Assembly (NCBI GenBank): GCA_031288515.1
Contig: JAITRG010000281.1
Coordinates: forward strand, 1 to 32,050
From: Tannerellaceae bacterium
Lineage (GTDB): Bacteria > Bacteroidota > Bacteroidia > Bacteroidales > Tannerellaceae
Length of the DNA: 32,050 bases
Direction of reading: 5' to 3'
Each line of letters begins with the position of its first letter. Position 1 is the first letter of the stretch. The translations under genes were made by a program, and so were the position numbers. The notes beneath the pieces were generated by a model. It saw only the letters and a list, made by a program, of their open reading frames with translations, made no database searches and had not been told where the DNA came from. This document shows positions 2,951-16,677 of the stretch, one piece after another.

Positions 2951-3211
2951 AGGTCGGCGAAAGGGAAAAATCATTACGATGTCCTTAGCAAACCATTATG
3001 ATAACTTTAAAAAAGCATTATGACGTCTCCAGGGAACCATCGTAATGGTTTACTGAAGGCGTCATAATGCTTTTTTATGAAATAAATACTTCTCTTCCGT
3101 TTCCGGCTGAAAGAAAGCCGAAGGATATTCTTTCAGTATTTTGTTTCATATTTTGTTCTGTAAATCACACATTTGCAACAAAGTTGAAAGCTGAAAGGAG
3201 AGGTGAAAATC
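2951..3211. repeat. Dispersed intergenic repeat, copy A (hairpin-rich)
   Basis: Shares ordered blocks with 16394-16677: GG(T/A)CGGC.AAAGGGAAAAATCATTA, ACCATTATGAT, ATGGTTTACTGAA(G/A)GCGTCATA..GC.TTTTTTATG.AATAAAT, CTGAAAG blocks, TTTGCAACAAA, GGTGAAA. Confidence 0.8.
3009..3076. repeat. 17 bp perfect inverted repeat with nested 6 bp hairpin
   Basis: AAAAAAGCATTATGACG (3009-3025) pairs with CGTCATAATGCTTTTTT (3060-3076). Inside it, AACCAT (3035-3040) pairs with ATGGTT (3045-3050). Confidence 0.9.
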
Positions 3212-3722
3212 ATACCTCAATTGACAATAGCCATTTCCATGCAGGAATTACTTCTATTGTAATCCCTTCCGTTTCAATCGACCGTTCTTCGTCACAGGTG
3301 ATGACGGTTAAACGTTCGGCAGGCATGAAACGGCTGAATTTCGCCAGGGCAACCGTTTCGCGTTTTTCCGTATCCCTGTCCGACAAGCTGTATGACGCCT
3401 GTATCGCCCATCGCTCGGAAGGAATATAAAAATCAATTTCTATGTTGTGGTTGTAAAAATAGAGATCGTCGCCGTAAAGGCGTTTTAAGGTAATAGCTAC
3501 CATGTTTTCGAGCAGGCGGGTTTCGGGATTGAACAGGAACAGGTTGAGAATGCCATTGTCGCAGAAGTAAAATTTGCGGTTGCTTTCCTTCCCGGCAAGT
3601 TTGGCCGTAATGTTCGGTACAGCAAACGCAATCCATGTTTCAAGCAAATGATCAACGTAATCAATGTATATATGTTTTGCCTTCCACTGGTAATCTTCAT
3701 CGTTTTTATGTATTTTTGTGGA
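3210..3722 (-). pseudogene. Remnant of AAA ATPase (DUF4143-type C-terminal domain), 5' truncated
   Basis: Frame reads *SQKYIKNDEDYQWKAKHIYIDYVDHLLETWIAFAVPNITAKLAGKESNRKFYFCDNGILNLFLFNPETRLLENMVAITLKRLYGDDLYFYNHNIEIDFYIP..., resembling the C-terminal part of DUF4143 ATPases. The track ORF starts at a TTG, there is an in-frame TAA at 3723-3725, and no P-loop domain is present upstream. Confidence 0.7.
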
Positions 3723-3724
3723 TT

Positions 3725-4747
3725 ATGAGAGTATTCGGATTTATCGTATTGCTGATAACAAACATATTCGCTGGTTTGGCTAAGGGAACTGTTGGAATTG
3801 CAGAAGCAAAGGTTAATACTGTAAATTTTGATAAGCCTTATCAGGACAGGTTAGTGAAACATATCATCCAGGGGAACGACGCCGCTCGTATATTCGAAAG
3901 TAAAATAAGCCGTGGCGAATTATATTATCAGGCGCTTGTGCCGGAAGGAAAGATTAAAGGGGCGCTGGTACTTCTGCCTGGCGCGTGGGAAGAAACGGAA
4001 AGCGTATTGAATCACAACAAACAACTATGCCGGCAGGCTTATGATAAAGGCGTCATGACGGTTGTGCCGTCGACCAACGCCTATATTTGTGTGGATACGT
4101 CTGCGCTTGATTTTTTGAATAAAACATTTGCCGATGTTATCGTGCGATATGGAGTGGCTGACGACGCGTTTGTTATTGGCGGTTTTTCTTTAGGCGGTAC
4201 CATAAGCCTGCGCTATACGGAAATGGCTTATGAAGGCGCCCGGCAAACGGCGATTGTCCCCTGCGCCGCTTTCAGTGTAGATGGGCCTGTTGATTATATA
4301 ACCTTATACCGGCAGTTTGAAACGAGCATCCGCAGAAATATGGATGAGGAAGCCGTAGCCGAAGCAACTTATTTCATTGACGGAATGCATAACGTATTTG
4401 GCGGTTCGCCCGAAGATACATATATTAATTATGTAAAGCGCTCGGTTTATACTCGGGGAGAGCCTGAAGGCGGCAACGCCCGATACCTGGCAACCGTCCC
4501 TGTCAGGGTATATGCCGACCCGGATATTGATTGGGCCATGAAATACCGTAAAAGAGATTATTATGATATGAACGCCTCCGGCCTAAGCGCTTTAATCGTC
4601 GAGCTGAACCTGCAAGGCAATGATAAGGCAGCGTTCGTCAACCGGCTGGGCAAAGGTTTCCGGTTGGACGGAACACGCCACCCTCACTCATGGAGTTTAC
4701 TGGATGCAGATGATTGTATAGAATGGATTTTAATGTACATGAAATGA
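3725..4747 (+). CDS. Putative secreted alpha/beta-hydrolase-fold protein
   Basis: N-terminal hydrophobic signal (MRVFGFIVLLITNIFAGLAKG), nucleophile-elbow-like GGFSLGGT, possible catalytic His in RHPHSWSLLDADD. ATG at 3725 preferred over upstream 3635. Confidence 0.65.
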   Translation: MRVFGFIVLLITNIFAGLAKGTVGIAEAKVNTVNFDKPYQDRLVKHIIQGNDAARIFESKISRGELYYQALVPEGKIKGALVLLPGAWEETESVLNHNKQLCRQAYDKGVMTVVPSTNAYICVDTSALDFLNKTFADVIVRYGVADDAFVIGGFSLGGTISLRYTEMAYEGARQTAIVPCAAFSVDGPVDYITLYRQFETSIRRNMDEEAVAEATYFIDGMHNVFGGSPEDTYINYVKRSVYTRGEPEGGNARYLATVPVRVYADPDIDWAMKYRKRDYYDMNASGLSALIVELNLQGNDKAAFVNRLGKGFRLDGTRHPHSWSLLDADDCIEWILMYMK

Positions 4748-5325
4748 AAAAATATCACTTACTGCTCTTCATATTTTTACTGCAATATCCTGTAACAGCG
4801 CAGGATTTCTCAGTTGTCGACTCTTTCTTTTTCGGAAAAATTGCAGAAAAACAATCCGATTTTTATCTCTTTGAAAACGGCTCTCTCAAAAAGATTGATT
4901 CGAGGCGTCATTCTATTTATCACCATTTGCCGGCGGCTTTATCCGGCGGTGGCGGATGGTATGATTCATACGGCGGAGCAGTAAGCGCCGTTTCTGATTT
5001 TTATCTGTTGGCAGATTGGTTATTGAACCGGGATAAAAACCTGCATATGGATATCCTTCGTTACAATAGCTTGAAAATAATGCTTTCATACCAGACAGGC
5101 GAACTCACGGCATCCGGCCGGTCCAAATTTGGATTAGGAACAGGAATCGCAGTGGGAGATAATGGCGAAACAAAAGAAGCTTTTGGGGCAGGCTTTACCT
5201 GTCGAGTTGCCGCAGGGCTTTTATCATCTGATTGTTGTCTTTCTCATCCCGGATGGCTATACGGATATAGGGCCGGGAATGGGAAGCCGGCTTTGGTAGA
5301 ACAGTCTTTTATCAGTATATTATAA
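4744..5325 (+). pseudogene. Truncated/chimeric secreted hypothetical protein; C-terminus encoded by antisense of a duplicated gene 3' end
   Basis: MKKYHLLLFIFLLQYPVTAQDF is a signal peptide. From nt ~5194 the DNA is a degenerate copy of 6128-6327 (3' end of the minus-strand gene at 6129-7943), so the last ~45 residues are not the original C-terminus. Confidence 0.65.
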
Positions 5326-5390
5326 GAAGATAGAAGCTGGGCCGTTTAGTTTTTTCGGGATGTATTTCCTTGTGACGAGAAAAGTAATTG
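5194..5390. repeat. Direct repeat, copy 1 (degenerate copy of the 3' end of the 6129-7943 gene)
   Basis: TTTACCTGTCGAGTTGCCGCAGGGCTTTTATCA.CTGATTGTTGTCTTTCTC.TCCCGGATGGCTATACGGATATAGGGCCGGGAATG... shared with 6128 onward, ending near AAGTAATTG; substitutions and indels present. Confidence 0.92.
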
Positions 5391-5397
5391 ATTGATA

Positions 5398-5431
5398 TTT
5401 GAACAATATGAATATTCGTATTATATTTGTG
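5398..5431 (+). promoter_or_regulatory. Candidate Bacteroidetes promoter (-33 TTTG / -7 TAnnTTTG)
   Basis: TTTG (5398-5401), 22 nt spacer, TATATTTG (5424-5431), 26 nt before ATG 5458. Confidence 0.6.
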
Positions 5432-5457
5432 TCGTCAAATCAAACAAAAGAGGTCTT

Positions 5458-5631
5458 ATGGGTATTGAAGAGAAGAGGAGGATCGCGAAAGAAATCTTTC
5501 TCTACTATGCAATGAAGTTGAAACCGGCAATGGATATAAAAGAACAGAGAGAATTAGTCAAACAGATAGATGCAATTTTAGACATGTATCTGGATTATTT
5601 AGAAAGTAAAAACAATTCAGCCTGTCAATAA
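5458..5631 (+). CDS. Small hypothetical protein (57 aa)
   Basis: MGIEEKRRIAKEIFLYYAMKLKPAMDIKEQRELVKQIDAILDMYLDYLESKNNSACQ; ATG 5458 preceded by an AGAGG-type purine stretch and the candidate promoter. Confidence 0.6.
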   Translation: MGIEEKRRIAKEIFLYYAMKLKPAMDIKEQRELVKQIDAILDMYLDYLESKNNSACQ

Positions 5632-5656
5632 AAGCAGGCTGTTAAAAAAGAAAGAT

Positions 5657-6091
5657 ATGGAAGATATAAGAAATTTATTCCCAACAGAAGAAATGTATAA
5701 TGAATTTTTGTTGTTCCAACAGATGAATGATGAAGAACGGAAAAATTTTGCAAATAAAAATTCCATTCGTTTTAATTCATTAAGCAAGGAAGAGCAGAAA
5801 AAAGAATTGGCAGATATAAAATCAGGAATAGAAAAAACAGTCGAATTTACCGACGAAATAATTCTTATTGAAAAATTAGGACACCTTCCCGAATATGTTT
5901 CCTTCTCAAAAATAGCAAAAAAATATTTCGGTAAGACAAGCGGTTGGTTGTATCATCGCTTGAAAGGTACTTTAATAAATGGAAAACCGGTAAAATTTAC
6001 CGACGAACAAAAGAATAAACTGGCAGATGCTTTTGAAGAACTTTCCAAAGAATTTAATAAAGCCTCTGCGATACTTCGTTCTGTATCATAA
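5657..6091 (+). CDS. Hypothetical protein resembling the DUF5053 family
   Basis: EYVSFSKIAKKYFGKTSGWLYHRLKGTLINGKPVKFTDEQKNKLADAFEELSKEF matches my recollection of the family's YFGK..WLYHRLKGN..NGK..KFT core; needs HMM confirmation. Confidence 0.6.
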   Translation: MEDIRNLFPTEEMYNEFLLFQQMNDEERKNFANKNSIRFNSLSKEEQKKELADIKSGIEKTVEFTDEIILIEKLGHLPEYVSFSKIAKKYFGKTSGWLYHRLKGTLINGKPVKFTDEQKNKLADAFEELSKEFNKASAILRSVS

Positions 6092-6127
6092 ATGGGTTGG
6101 TTAGACAAGACCGAGACTTGAAGAACT

Positions 6128-6327
6128 TTTACCTGTCGAGTTGCCGCAGGGCTTTTATCAACTGATTGTTGTCTTTCTCGTCCCGGATGGCTATACGGAT
6201 ATAGGGCCGGGAATGAAAGCCGGCTTTGGTTGAACAGTCTTTTATTAATATATTATAAGAATATAGAAGTTGGCTGCTTAGTTCTTTCGTTGTGTATTTT
6301 TCAGTGACCTCGCACAAGAAGTAATTG
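6128..6327. repeat. Direct repeat, copy 2 (functional 3' end of the 6129-7943 gene)
   Basis: Same orientation as 5194-5390, offset ~934 bp. Confidence 0.92.
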
Positions 6328-7943
6328 GCCGACGAGGGGATAACACGCAGGAAAGAAATTGTTTCCAATAAGGAAAAGAAGCGGGTACGCTCATTTACAA
6401 AGCTCAGGCAGGCCCGTCCGTATGCATCCTGGTATTTGGTAAATATCTGCATAAAGAACTCTGCAAAGGAGTTGATATTCCAGATAGAGACTTCCTTCTT
6501 TATTTTATTTATTAATTCTATATTGCCCGAAGCTATAAAACCTAACCTCAGTCCCGGTACGCCGTATGATTTGGAAATGCTTTTAACTACTGTCAAATGT
6601 GGGTTATCGGCCAAATATTCTTTGTTGAACAGCGTAAACCGTTTACTGCCGGCTGCAAAATCGGCAAACGATTCGTCTACGACTAACGTTATCCCTTTTT
6701 CTTTCGCCCATGCTACAAGCTCCAATAATTGGGCCTCTTCAATCAGATTCCCGGAAGGGTTATCCGGGTTGATCACGATTAATTGCTTAATATCCTTTTC
6801 ACTGAAGAAATGAATGAGGTCGCCGGCCGTATAGGTAAAGTCTCTGTTTGCAGGAATAAACTCCACTTTATTGGCAGGCGTCAGCCTGTTGGGGTATTCT
6901 TCAAACGTAGGAAGTATGACGCCCGTTTTCACGTCATTCAGCCGGATATATGTATTTATTAATTCTGCCGCGCCGTTTCCCGCCGCAATCTGATTGGCGT
7001 ATACATTGGCAAACCGGGCGGCAAGCCGGGCATTTACTCCCATGCCGGAGGGGTATTCCGTCAATAAACTGTCAAAATTAGACAACATCTCTTCTTTCAT
7101 CCGCTCATTGGGGAAATAGGGGTTTACCAGATAGCAGAAATCCGTCATCTGCGGAAAGCGCCAATAGCCTCCATAGCGCTTTCCATATAAAGCGGGGGCC
7201 TCCTCTTCCGATGCAAAAAGCGCTTCGGCATTCGTTAAATCCTGTTCATCGTCAATCTCATACCACTTCTCTTTAGCGACGGTCATGGCTTTAAGTTCGG
7301 GCTTATCCAGCAGGGATATTACTCTTAAAACCTGTTCGTAATATTCGTTATTGCCCAGTGCCTTGCTGTATGCTTCGAGGAAAGGGACATATTTATTGGA
7401 TGAAAAATCAACGCTGAATTTGTAAATATTTACCGTTTTGTAATAGTTGTCTTTCTCGCTGAATTTAAAGGCTTTCTTGGGAATGAAGTTCAGGATGTTG
7501 TCGTCTTCGTCGAGCGTGACAACCGTTCCATCCATCCAACTCTGATATTTATCCACAACCGTCAGGTTGGGATAAGGATTCTTTATCAGTTTCTTTAGTA
7601 TTTGCCCTGAGAATATCAGGTCTGATTCGAGAAGGATGGTTTCATCTTCCATTAAGTATTCGCGGGCGAGATACAGGGAATAGATATTATTCGTTTTATC
7701 ATATATTTTATTTTCTACATATATAACAGGCTTTCCCTGGAACGTATCGCCTATAAACTTTTTCAGGTTGTCTCCTTTATAACCGATAACGATAATAATA
7801 CGCTTTATATTTTCAGCGGCAAGCTGGGTAAGCATACGTTCGATCAATGTCCGTGAATGGACTTTAATCATACACTTGGTGTTTTCTTTCGTGAGGCTGC
7901 CCAGGCGTTTTCCCATACCTGCCGCCAATATAATTGCTTGCAT
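6129..7943 (-). CDS. Bifunctional protein: LicC/PntC-like nucleotidyltransferase fused to CobD-like class I/II PLP-dependent aminotransferase/decarboxylase
   Basis: N-terminus MQAIILAAGMGKRLGSLTKENTKCMIKV (NTP_transferase signature) with LicC-like TNNIYSLYLAREYL and WYEIDDEQDL. C-terminus has NPDNPSGN, VVDESFADF and the PLP-Lys motif SISKSYGVPGLRLGF. Confidence 0.85.
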   Translation of the reverse strand: MQAIILAAGMGKRLGSLTKENTKCMIKVHSRTLIERMLTQLAAENIKRIIIVIGYKGDNLKKFIGDTFQGKPVIYVENKIYDKTNNIYSLYLAREYLMEDETILLESDLIFSGQILKKLIKNPYPNLTVVDKYQSWMDGTVVTLDEDDNILNFIPKKAFKFSEKDNYYKTVNIYKFSVDFSSNKYVPFLEAYSKALGNNEYYEQVLRVISLLDKPELKAMTVAKEKWYEIDDEQDLTNAEALFASEEEAPALYGKRYGGYWRFPQMTDFCYLVNPYFPNERMKEEMLSNFDSLLTEYPSGMGVNARLAARFANVYANQIAAGNGAAELINTYIRLNDVKTGVILPTFEEYPNRLTPANKVEFIPANRDFTYTAGDLIHFFSEKDIKQLIVINPDNPSGNLIEEAQLLELVAWAKEKGITLVVDESFADFAAGSKRFTLFNKEYLADNPHLTVVKSISKSYGVPGLRLGFIASGNIELINKIKKEVSIWNINSFAEFFMQIFTKYQDAYGRACLSFVNERTRFFSLLETISFLRVIPSSANYFLCEVTEKYTTKELSSQLLYSYNILIKDCSTKAGFHSRPYIRIAIRDEKDNNQLIKALRQLDR

Positions 7944-16393: not shown

Positions 16394-16677
16394 AGGGACG
16401 GCAAAAAGGGAAAAAATCATTATGACGCCTTCAGCAGACCATTATTATGGTTTGGTAAAAAGTATATAATGGTTTACTAAAGACATTATAATGGTTTACT
16501 GAAAGCGTCATAGCGCTTTTTTTTATGGAATAAATCTCCTCCGGTTTCCGAAGGCTGAAAGGAAGCTGAAATCTCCTTTTTCGTCTTCTTTCAGTGTTTC
16601 ATTCTGTAAACCAATCCTTTGCAACAAAACTGAAACTGAAAGAACAGTATCTGTCTGTTCAAAACAGGGGTGAAATC
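16394..16677. repeat. Dispersed intergenic repeat, copy B
   Basis: Same ordered blocks as 2951-3211, with an extra internal unit (ATAATGGTTTACTAAAGACATTATAATGGTTTACTGAAAGCGTCATAG). Confidence 0.8.

Follow-up and report, generated by a model that had tools for sequence, protein, structure and literature searches.

The cassette at positions 5391-6127 of the window, by which we mean the whole 32,050-nucleotide stretch of Tannerellaceae DNA that was analysed, is probably a copy of a two-gene operon, widespread and self-contained, whose behaviour resembles that of a phage 'moron', and was gained beside the 3' end of cobD by RecA-type recombination rather than by an integrase (probability about 0.58). 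The evidence comprises a direct repeat of the cobD end on both sides of the cassette, mosaic identity between the two repeat copies, an empty site in a relative of the same genus, a contig that carries no integrase, and the recurrence of the operon at other loci. The features of the locus are as follows.

3635-4747, plus strand: gene of alpha/beta-hydrolase type (esterase) that borders the insertion on the left; weak Abhydrolase matches, orthologue in relative G016
4744-5193, plus strand: remnant of a serine hydrolase gene, cut by copy 1; aligns in two separate blocks with a 399-aa ORF from Bacteroides sp. 519
5194-5390, minus strand: frameshifted copy 1 of the cobD 3' end, which resembles copy 2 at 97% over its first 89 bp and at about 80% thereafter
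5405-5422, no strand assigned: near-perfect palindrome AATATGAATATTCGTATT, by its sequence a putative operator; overlaps the promoter
5422-5429, plus strand: Bacteroidetes-type -7 element TATATTTG, assigned from sequence
5458-5631, plus strand: helical protein of 57 aa, corresponding to the ORF of 45-65 aa that lies upstream of DUF5053 across the family
5657-6091, plus strand: 144-aa DUF5053 protein (PF16476, E 3.3e-23)
6128-6327, minus strand: copy 2, the functional cobD 3' end and right border of the insertion
6129-7943, minus strand: intact gene for a LicC-type nucleotidyltransferase fused to a CobD-type aminotransferase; orthologues 82-95% identical (aa) in G016, G008, G017, G015 and G011

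The extent of the inserted DNA is defined by G016, a member of the same genus whose cobD product is 95% identical (aa) and in which the esterase and cobD stop codons lie 3 nt apart and cobD has a single end, so that positions 4748-6127 of the window represent inserted DNA. Such a site is expected of an att-type element, yet it is not specific to integrative elements. The initial annotation had anticipated a single cobD end directly next to the gene at 4744; the single end was found, but it adjoins the esterase, because the 4744 ORF was itself inserted and has decayed. Nor does copy 1 abut an intact gene: the 4744 ORF is a broken serine hydrolase whose matches to the 399-aa ORF from Bacteroides sp. 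519 are confined to residues ~3-39 and ~237-352 and which ends where copy 1 starts, having lost ~200 aa internally and ~46 aa at the C-terminus of a gene of ~400 aa. It has no counterpart in the rest of the genus, and elsewhere only distant serine hydrolases were found. The DNA beyond the cobD stop codon differs each time in G008, G015, G011 and G007, and this variation in every relative examined marks the position as a variable spot or insertion hot spot.

Several other features of the region were observed. Upstream, an ATPase that spans 422 aa in G016 is reduced to a C-terminal remnant of 145 aa (3210-3647). In G016 itself (L016, 4454-6330), a 43-bp second copy of the esterase 3' end (88%) is present with an acetyltransferase-like stretch between the copies, resembling a similar insertion scar. 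A 240-bp repeat at 2960-3197 and 16405-16642 of the window is 74% identical between its copies and contains inverted repeats; it resembles a palindromic element of dispersed type.

The direct repeat described in the initial annotation is real: self-comparison of the window recovered the pair at 5194-5390 and 6128-6327 as 174 bp at 90.8% identity (E 1.5e-61), far beyond chance, and a flank-versus-flank comparison, supplying the alignment that had been suggested, gave 86.6% over 202 columns (E 9e-56). Copy 1 is diverged and its frame is broken by indels, the left edge of each copy lies 1 nt outside the cobD stop codon, and the promoter, 57-aa ORF and DUF5053 ORF lie between the copies as reported. 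No further copy of this cobD end exists elsewhere in the genome. Identity along the repeat is distinctly uneven, with 86 of 89 positions matching from the stop codon inwards (97%) and only 87 of the following 109 (~80%; Fisher p 4e-4). Over the left 89 bp the two copies resemble each other more than either resembles any relative (best 92%, G008). Over the 109 columns of the right part, copy 1 matches copy 2 at 87, G008 at 89 and G017 at 87, while copy 2 agrees with G016 at 109 of 114 positions. Had a local duplicate simply decayed, copy 2 would remain the closest match of copy 1. The right-hand stretch of copy 1, however, stands no closer to copy 2 than to either of G008 and G017, and it is therefore not simply a decayed local duplicate. 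The earlier proposal that one copy came from another strain or element is thus supported for at least part of one copy. Mosaic identity of this kind is the pattern that would be expected from a crossover or gene conversion within the repeat, although 200 bp is a short stretch of evidence: it could partly reflect uneven decay, and the crossover point cannot be located.

These comparisons weigh directly on the proposal that a region with the cobD 3' end was duplicated in tandem and that the operon was then inserted between the copies, copy 1 decaying afterwards. The direct orientation of the copies and the near identity of their first 89 bp accord with this order of events, but in its right part copy 1 differs as much from copy 2 as from the cobD of other species, and a gene remnant that is not present in the rest of the genus lies to the left of copy 1; we regard a tandem duplication as unlikely.

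For recombination through the cobD end, we infer the donor, the order of events and the enzymes of insertion as follows. The incoming DNA would have consisted of the operon joined to the cobD 3' end of a related species, and a single crossover with the resident cobD end would have taken it in, for example after circularisation with loss of part of the homologous stretch, or through one-sided homology. Such an event would leave a truncated copy 1 on the far side, preserve a working cobD end and remove the operon's own terminator, and the crossover, or gene conversion afterwards, would account for the likeness of the first ~90 bp of the two copies. Experiments in Escherichia coli offer the best model for the scar: with donors of one-sided homology, PCR tests of 60 clones showed part of the homologous locus to be duplicated in 56, and 14 sequenced duplications measured 109-950 bp and were ascribed to a single crossover (PMC3240628). 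The nearest DUF5053 proteins are only about 38% identical to that of the window, and hence no donor was found.

Site-specific integration at a gene 3' end, as the initial annotation suggested, would have an element bring a replacement cobD end and displace the native end to 5194-5390, with the integrase and most of the element deleted later. The topology fits, cobD is intact and the copies differ, and prophages that replace the 3' end of their target gene with imperfect homology are known (e14/icd). DUF5053 is also common on phages, and a tyrosine-integrase-like ORF, identified by eye, adjoins one related operon (L027). However, the absence of an integrase noted earlier was confirmed by Pfam for the 32-kb contig, all Pfam integrase matches of the genome lying on other contigs, and the repeats contain no short identical att core. 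Moreover, the search for longer integrase-bearing elements ending in this cobD sequence returned none, the cobD end occurring in no phage, plasmid or IMG/VR record at the sensitivity used, and the repeats beside related operons, where there are any, are of other kinds. Att-type integration is accordingly not supported, and we consider it quite improbable.

The cassette is one representative of a two-gene operon that is found repeatedly at unrelated loci, both chromosomal and phage, in the Bacteroidales. DUF5053 is present in 41 of 125 genomes of the family, and in IMG/VR there are 129 stretches encoding relatives. In the window and in most of the long-type loci, a helical ORF of 45-65 aa lies directly upstream of DUF5053 on the same strand. 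The operons also reside on phage contigs (42 long-type units were tested), where some have tail tape-measure or terminase-like genes as neighbours. Of 49 chromosomal units, 13 lie between direct repeats, as compared with 1 of the 111 control genes taken from these loci (p 6.5e-7) and 24 of 708 random positions. The repeats are of assorted kinds, among them a gene end (the window), terminators (L064, L138), an intergenic stretch (L073), dispersed repeats (L069, L091, L089), a phage gene (L147) and neighbouring paralogues (L134), and some related operons have no flanking repeat at all. This assortment points to recombination-prone sites rather than to a fixed target duplication, although repeat-rich insertion sites alone may account for the enrichment, since dispersed repeats, terminators and paralogue arrays are among the repeats concerned. 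The idea of a fixed target-site duplication was rejected because several of the bracketing repeats (L089, L091, L137) have the look of dispersed repeats.

Two further observations concern the neighbourhoods of these units. DUF5053 units lie side by side in L134 (2400-4700, reverse orientation) and in L136, which suggests small arrays, and genes resembling toxin-antitoxin pairs (HigBA or HicAB types, judged by eye) adjoin the units in L064, L138 and L028.

A second common feature of the operons lies in the ends of their mRNA. In the family layout, a dyad overlies a Bacteroidetes promoter (TAnnTTTG), and 2-4 nt downstream of this promoter lies a 5' arm (often GTCAAAC...) that is the reverse complement, over up to 20 bp, of a segment just past the DUF5053 stop codon and ahead of the terminator. 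In 46 chromosomal units, own ends scored 9.37 as compared with 6.77 for swapped ends, and in 38 phage units 11.6 as compared with 6.6, the own end being best in 24; neither difference was reached in 50,000 permutations, figures that overstate the certainty somewhat because related loci are not independent. A stricter promoter rule was set for the chromosomal units and applied unchanged to the independent viral set; with an earlier, poorer choice of promoters the complementarity was weak (p 0.02). Scores of at least 12 occurred in 14 of 46 units and in none of 64 control genes. Perfect matching of arms whose sequences vary, with stems of 20 bp in L250, 19 bp in L204 and 17 bp in L075, argues more strongly for pairing than the permutations do. 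When whole transcripts were folded by partition function, the 5' end was predicted to pair with its own 3' end in 50 of 84 units and with a swapped one in 25, and internal non-Watson-Crick pairs were more often G-U than A-C (15 versus 4, p 0.01), a bias that favours pairing in the sense RNA. An Rfam search gave no match.

The corresponding arms in the window are the following.

5434-5443, plus strand: 5' arm GTCAAATCAA, equivalent in position to the family's conserved 5' stem arm, weak
6097-6106, plus strand: 3' arm TTGGTTAGAC, complementary to 5434-5443 apart from one mismatch and a G-U

This putative 10-nt stem is a weak form of the family's: the operon's own 3' end ranks only 22nd of 46, with 2.6 expected pairs, and the intrinsic terminator present in most relatives is missing from the plus strand at 6091-6128. 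Weak arms together with a missing terminator suggest that the window copy may be decaying. In related copies, the predicted stem closing the mRNA could either stabilise or silence the message. Whether DUF5053 operons constitute a large, unstudied class of two-gene units on Bacteroidales phages and chromosomes, whose messages are closed by pairing of the 5' end with a segment ahead of the terminator, and thereby represent a new kind of regulatory arrangement for phage modules that encode proteins, is to our minds evenly balanced; the paired ends have apparently not been described before. Six units (L084, L087, L098, L138, L191 and L200) have a local hairpin-like 5' end (TTGTC ATTAA GACAA), and most units of this kind lack the long-range stem, possibly representing an alternative way of pairing the 5' end. 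That the operon is instead a mobile gene cassette whose arms are inverted ends recognised by a trans-acting recombinase, with the bracketing repeats (27% of chromosomal units) as a by-product, would suit the inverted arms at both operon ends and the patchy distribution, but is highly improbable, given that the arms begin just past the promoter, which would thus stay outside the moved unit, and that their sequences vary freely yet stay complementary and show the sense-strand G-U bias expected for RNA.

The DUF5053 assignment in the window is secure (81.6 bits as compared with a curated cut-off of 26.6), and a literature search for the domain found no paper. AlphaFold2 modelled the protein at good local confidence, with a pLDDT of 89 and a pTM of 0.55, predicting a helical N-terminus, two helices with helix-turn-helix-like spacing accompanied by a small beta hairpin, and a long C-terminal helix. 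A fold search returned no significant match (Aca11 only at E about 5), a profile search of the PDB found no sequence relative, and PADLOC and NCBIfam returned no match when the operon was considered as a toxin-antitoxin system. Most likely, DUF5053 is the operon's autoregulatory DNA-binding protein, DNA binding being predicted from motif and topology because the fold search yielded nothing significant. Related operons carry similar dyads ahead of TAnnTTTG, as judged by eye; a shuffle test of the promoter palindromes was only mildly positive and not statistically strong.

Read in this way, a puzzling repeat becomes a legible recombination scar, and it points to a common, unstudied phage-type operon of the Bacteroidales that combines a simple predicted RNA design, the paired ends, with a probable self-regulating DNA-binding protein; the recurring operon with its complementary message ends is the side result most worth following. 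As in one-sided-homology recombination, foreign DNA stands beside a homologous stretch with a partial duplicate of ~100-950 bp (PMC3240628; orphan arrays, PMC5361080), although here the process is known from its scar alone. Like phage morons, the operon is small and self-contained, has its own promoter and usually its own terminator, and is found among phage genes as well as at chromosomal spots. Unlike them, the DUF5053 family has 5' and 3' mRNA ends that are predicted to pair, and the window copy retains a promoter but has lost its terminator; any moron-like function is putative. The acr-aca operons share with it the order of genes, a small protein being encoded ahead of a conserved protein of putative helix-turn-helix type, together with promoter dyads; however, the small protein of the DUF5053 operon appears to form a single conserved helical family and not a set of varied effectors, and DUF5053 has neither a sequence match nor a significant fold match to the Aca proteins. 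Finally, in hok-type toxin mRNAs the 5' and 3' ends of the message pair. The DUF5053 unit differs from these in being a two-protein operon in which neither an antisense RNA nor a hydrophobic toxin peptide was seen, but the message ends of related DUF5053 copies are likewise predicted to pair, which could render the mRNA stable or inactive.
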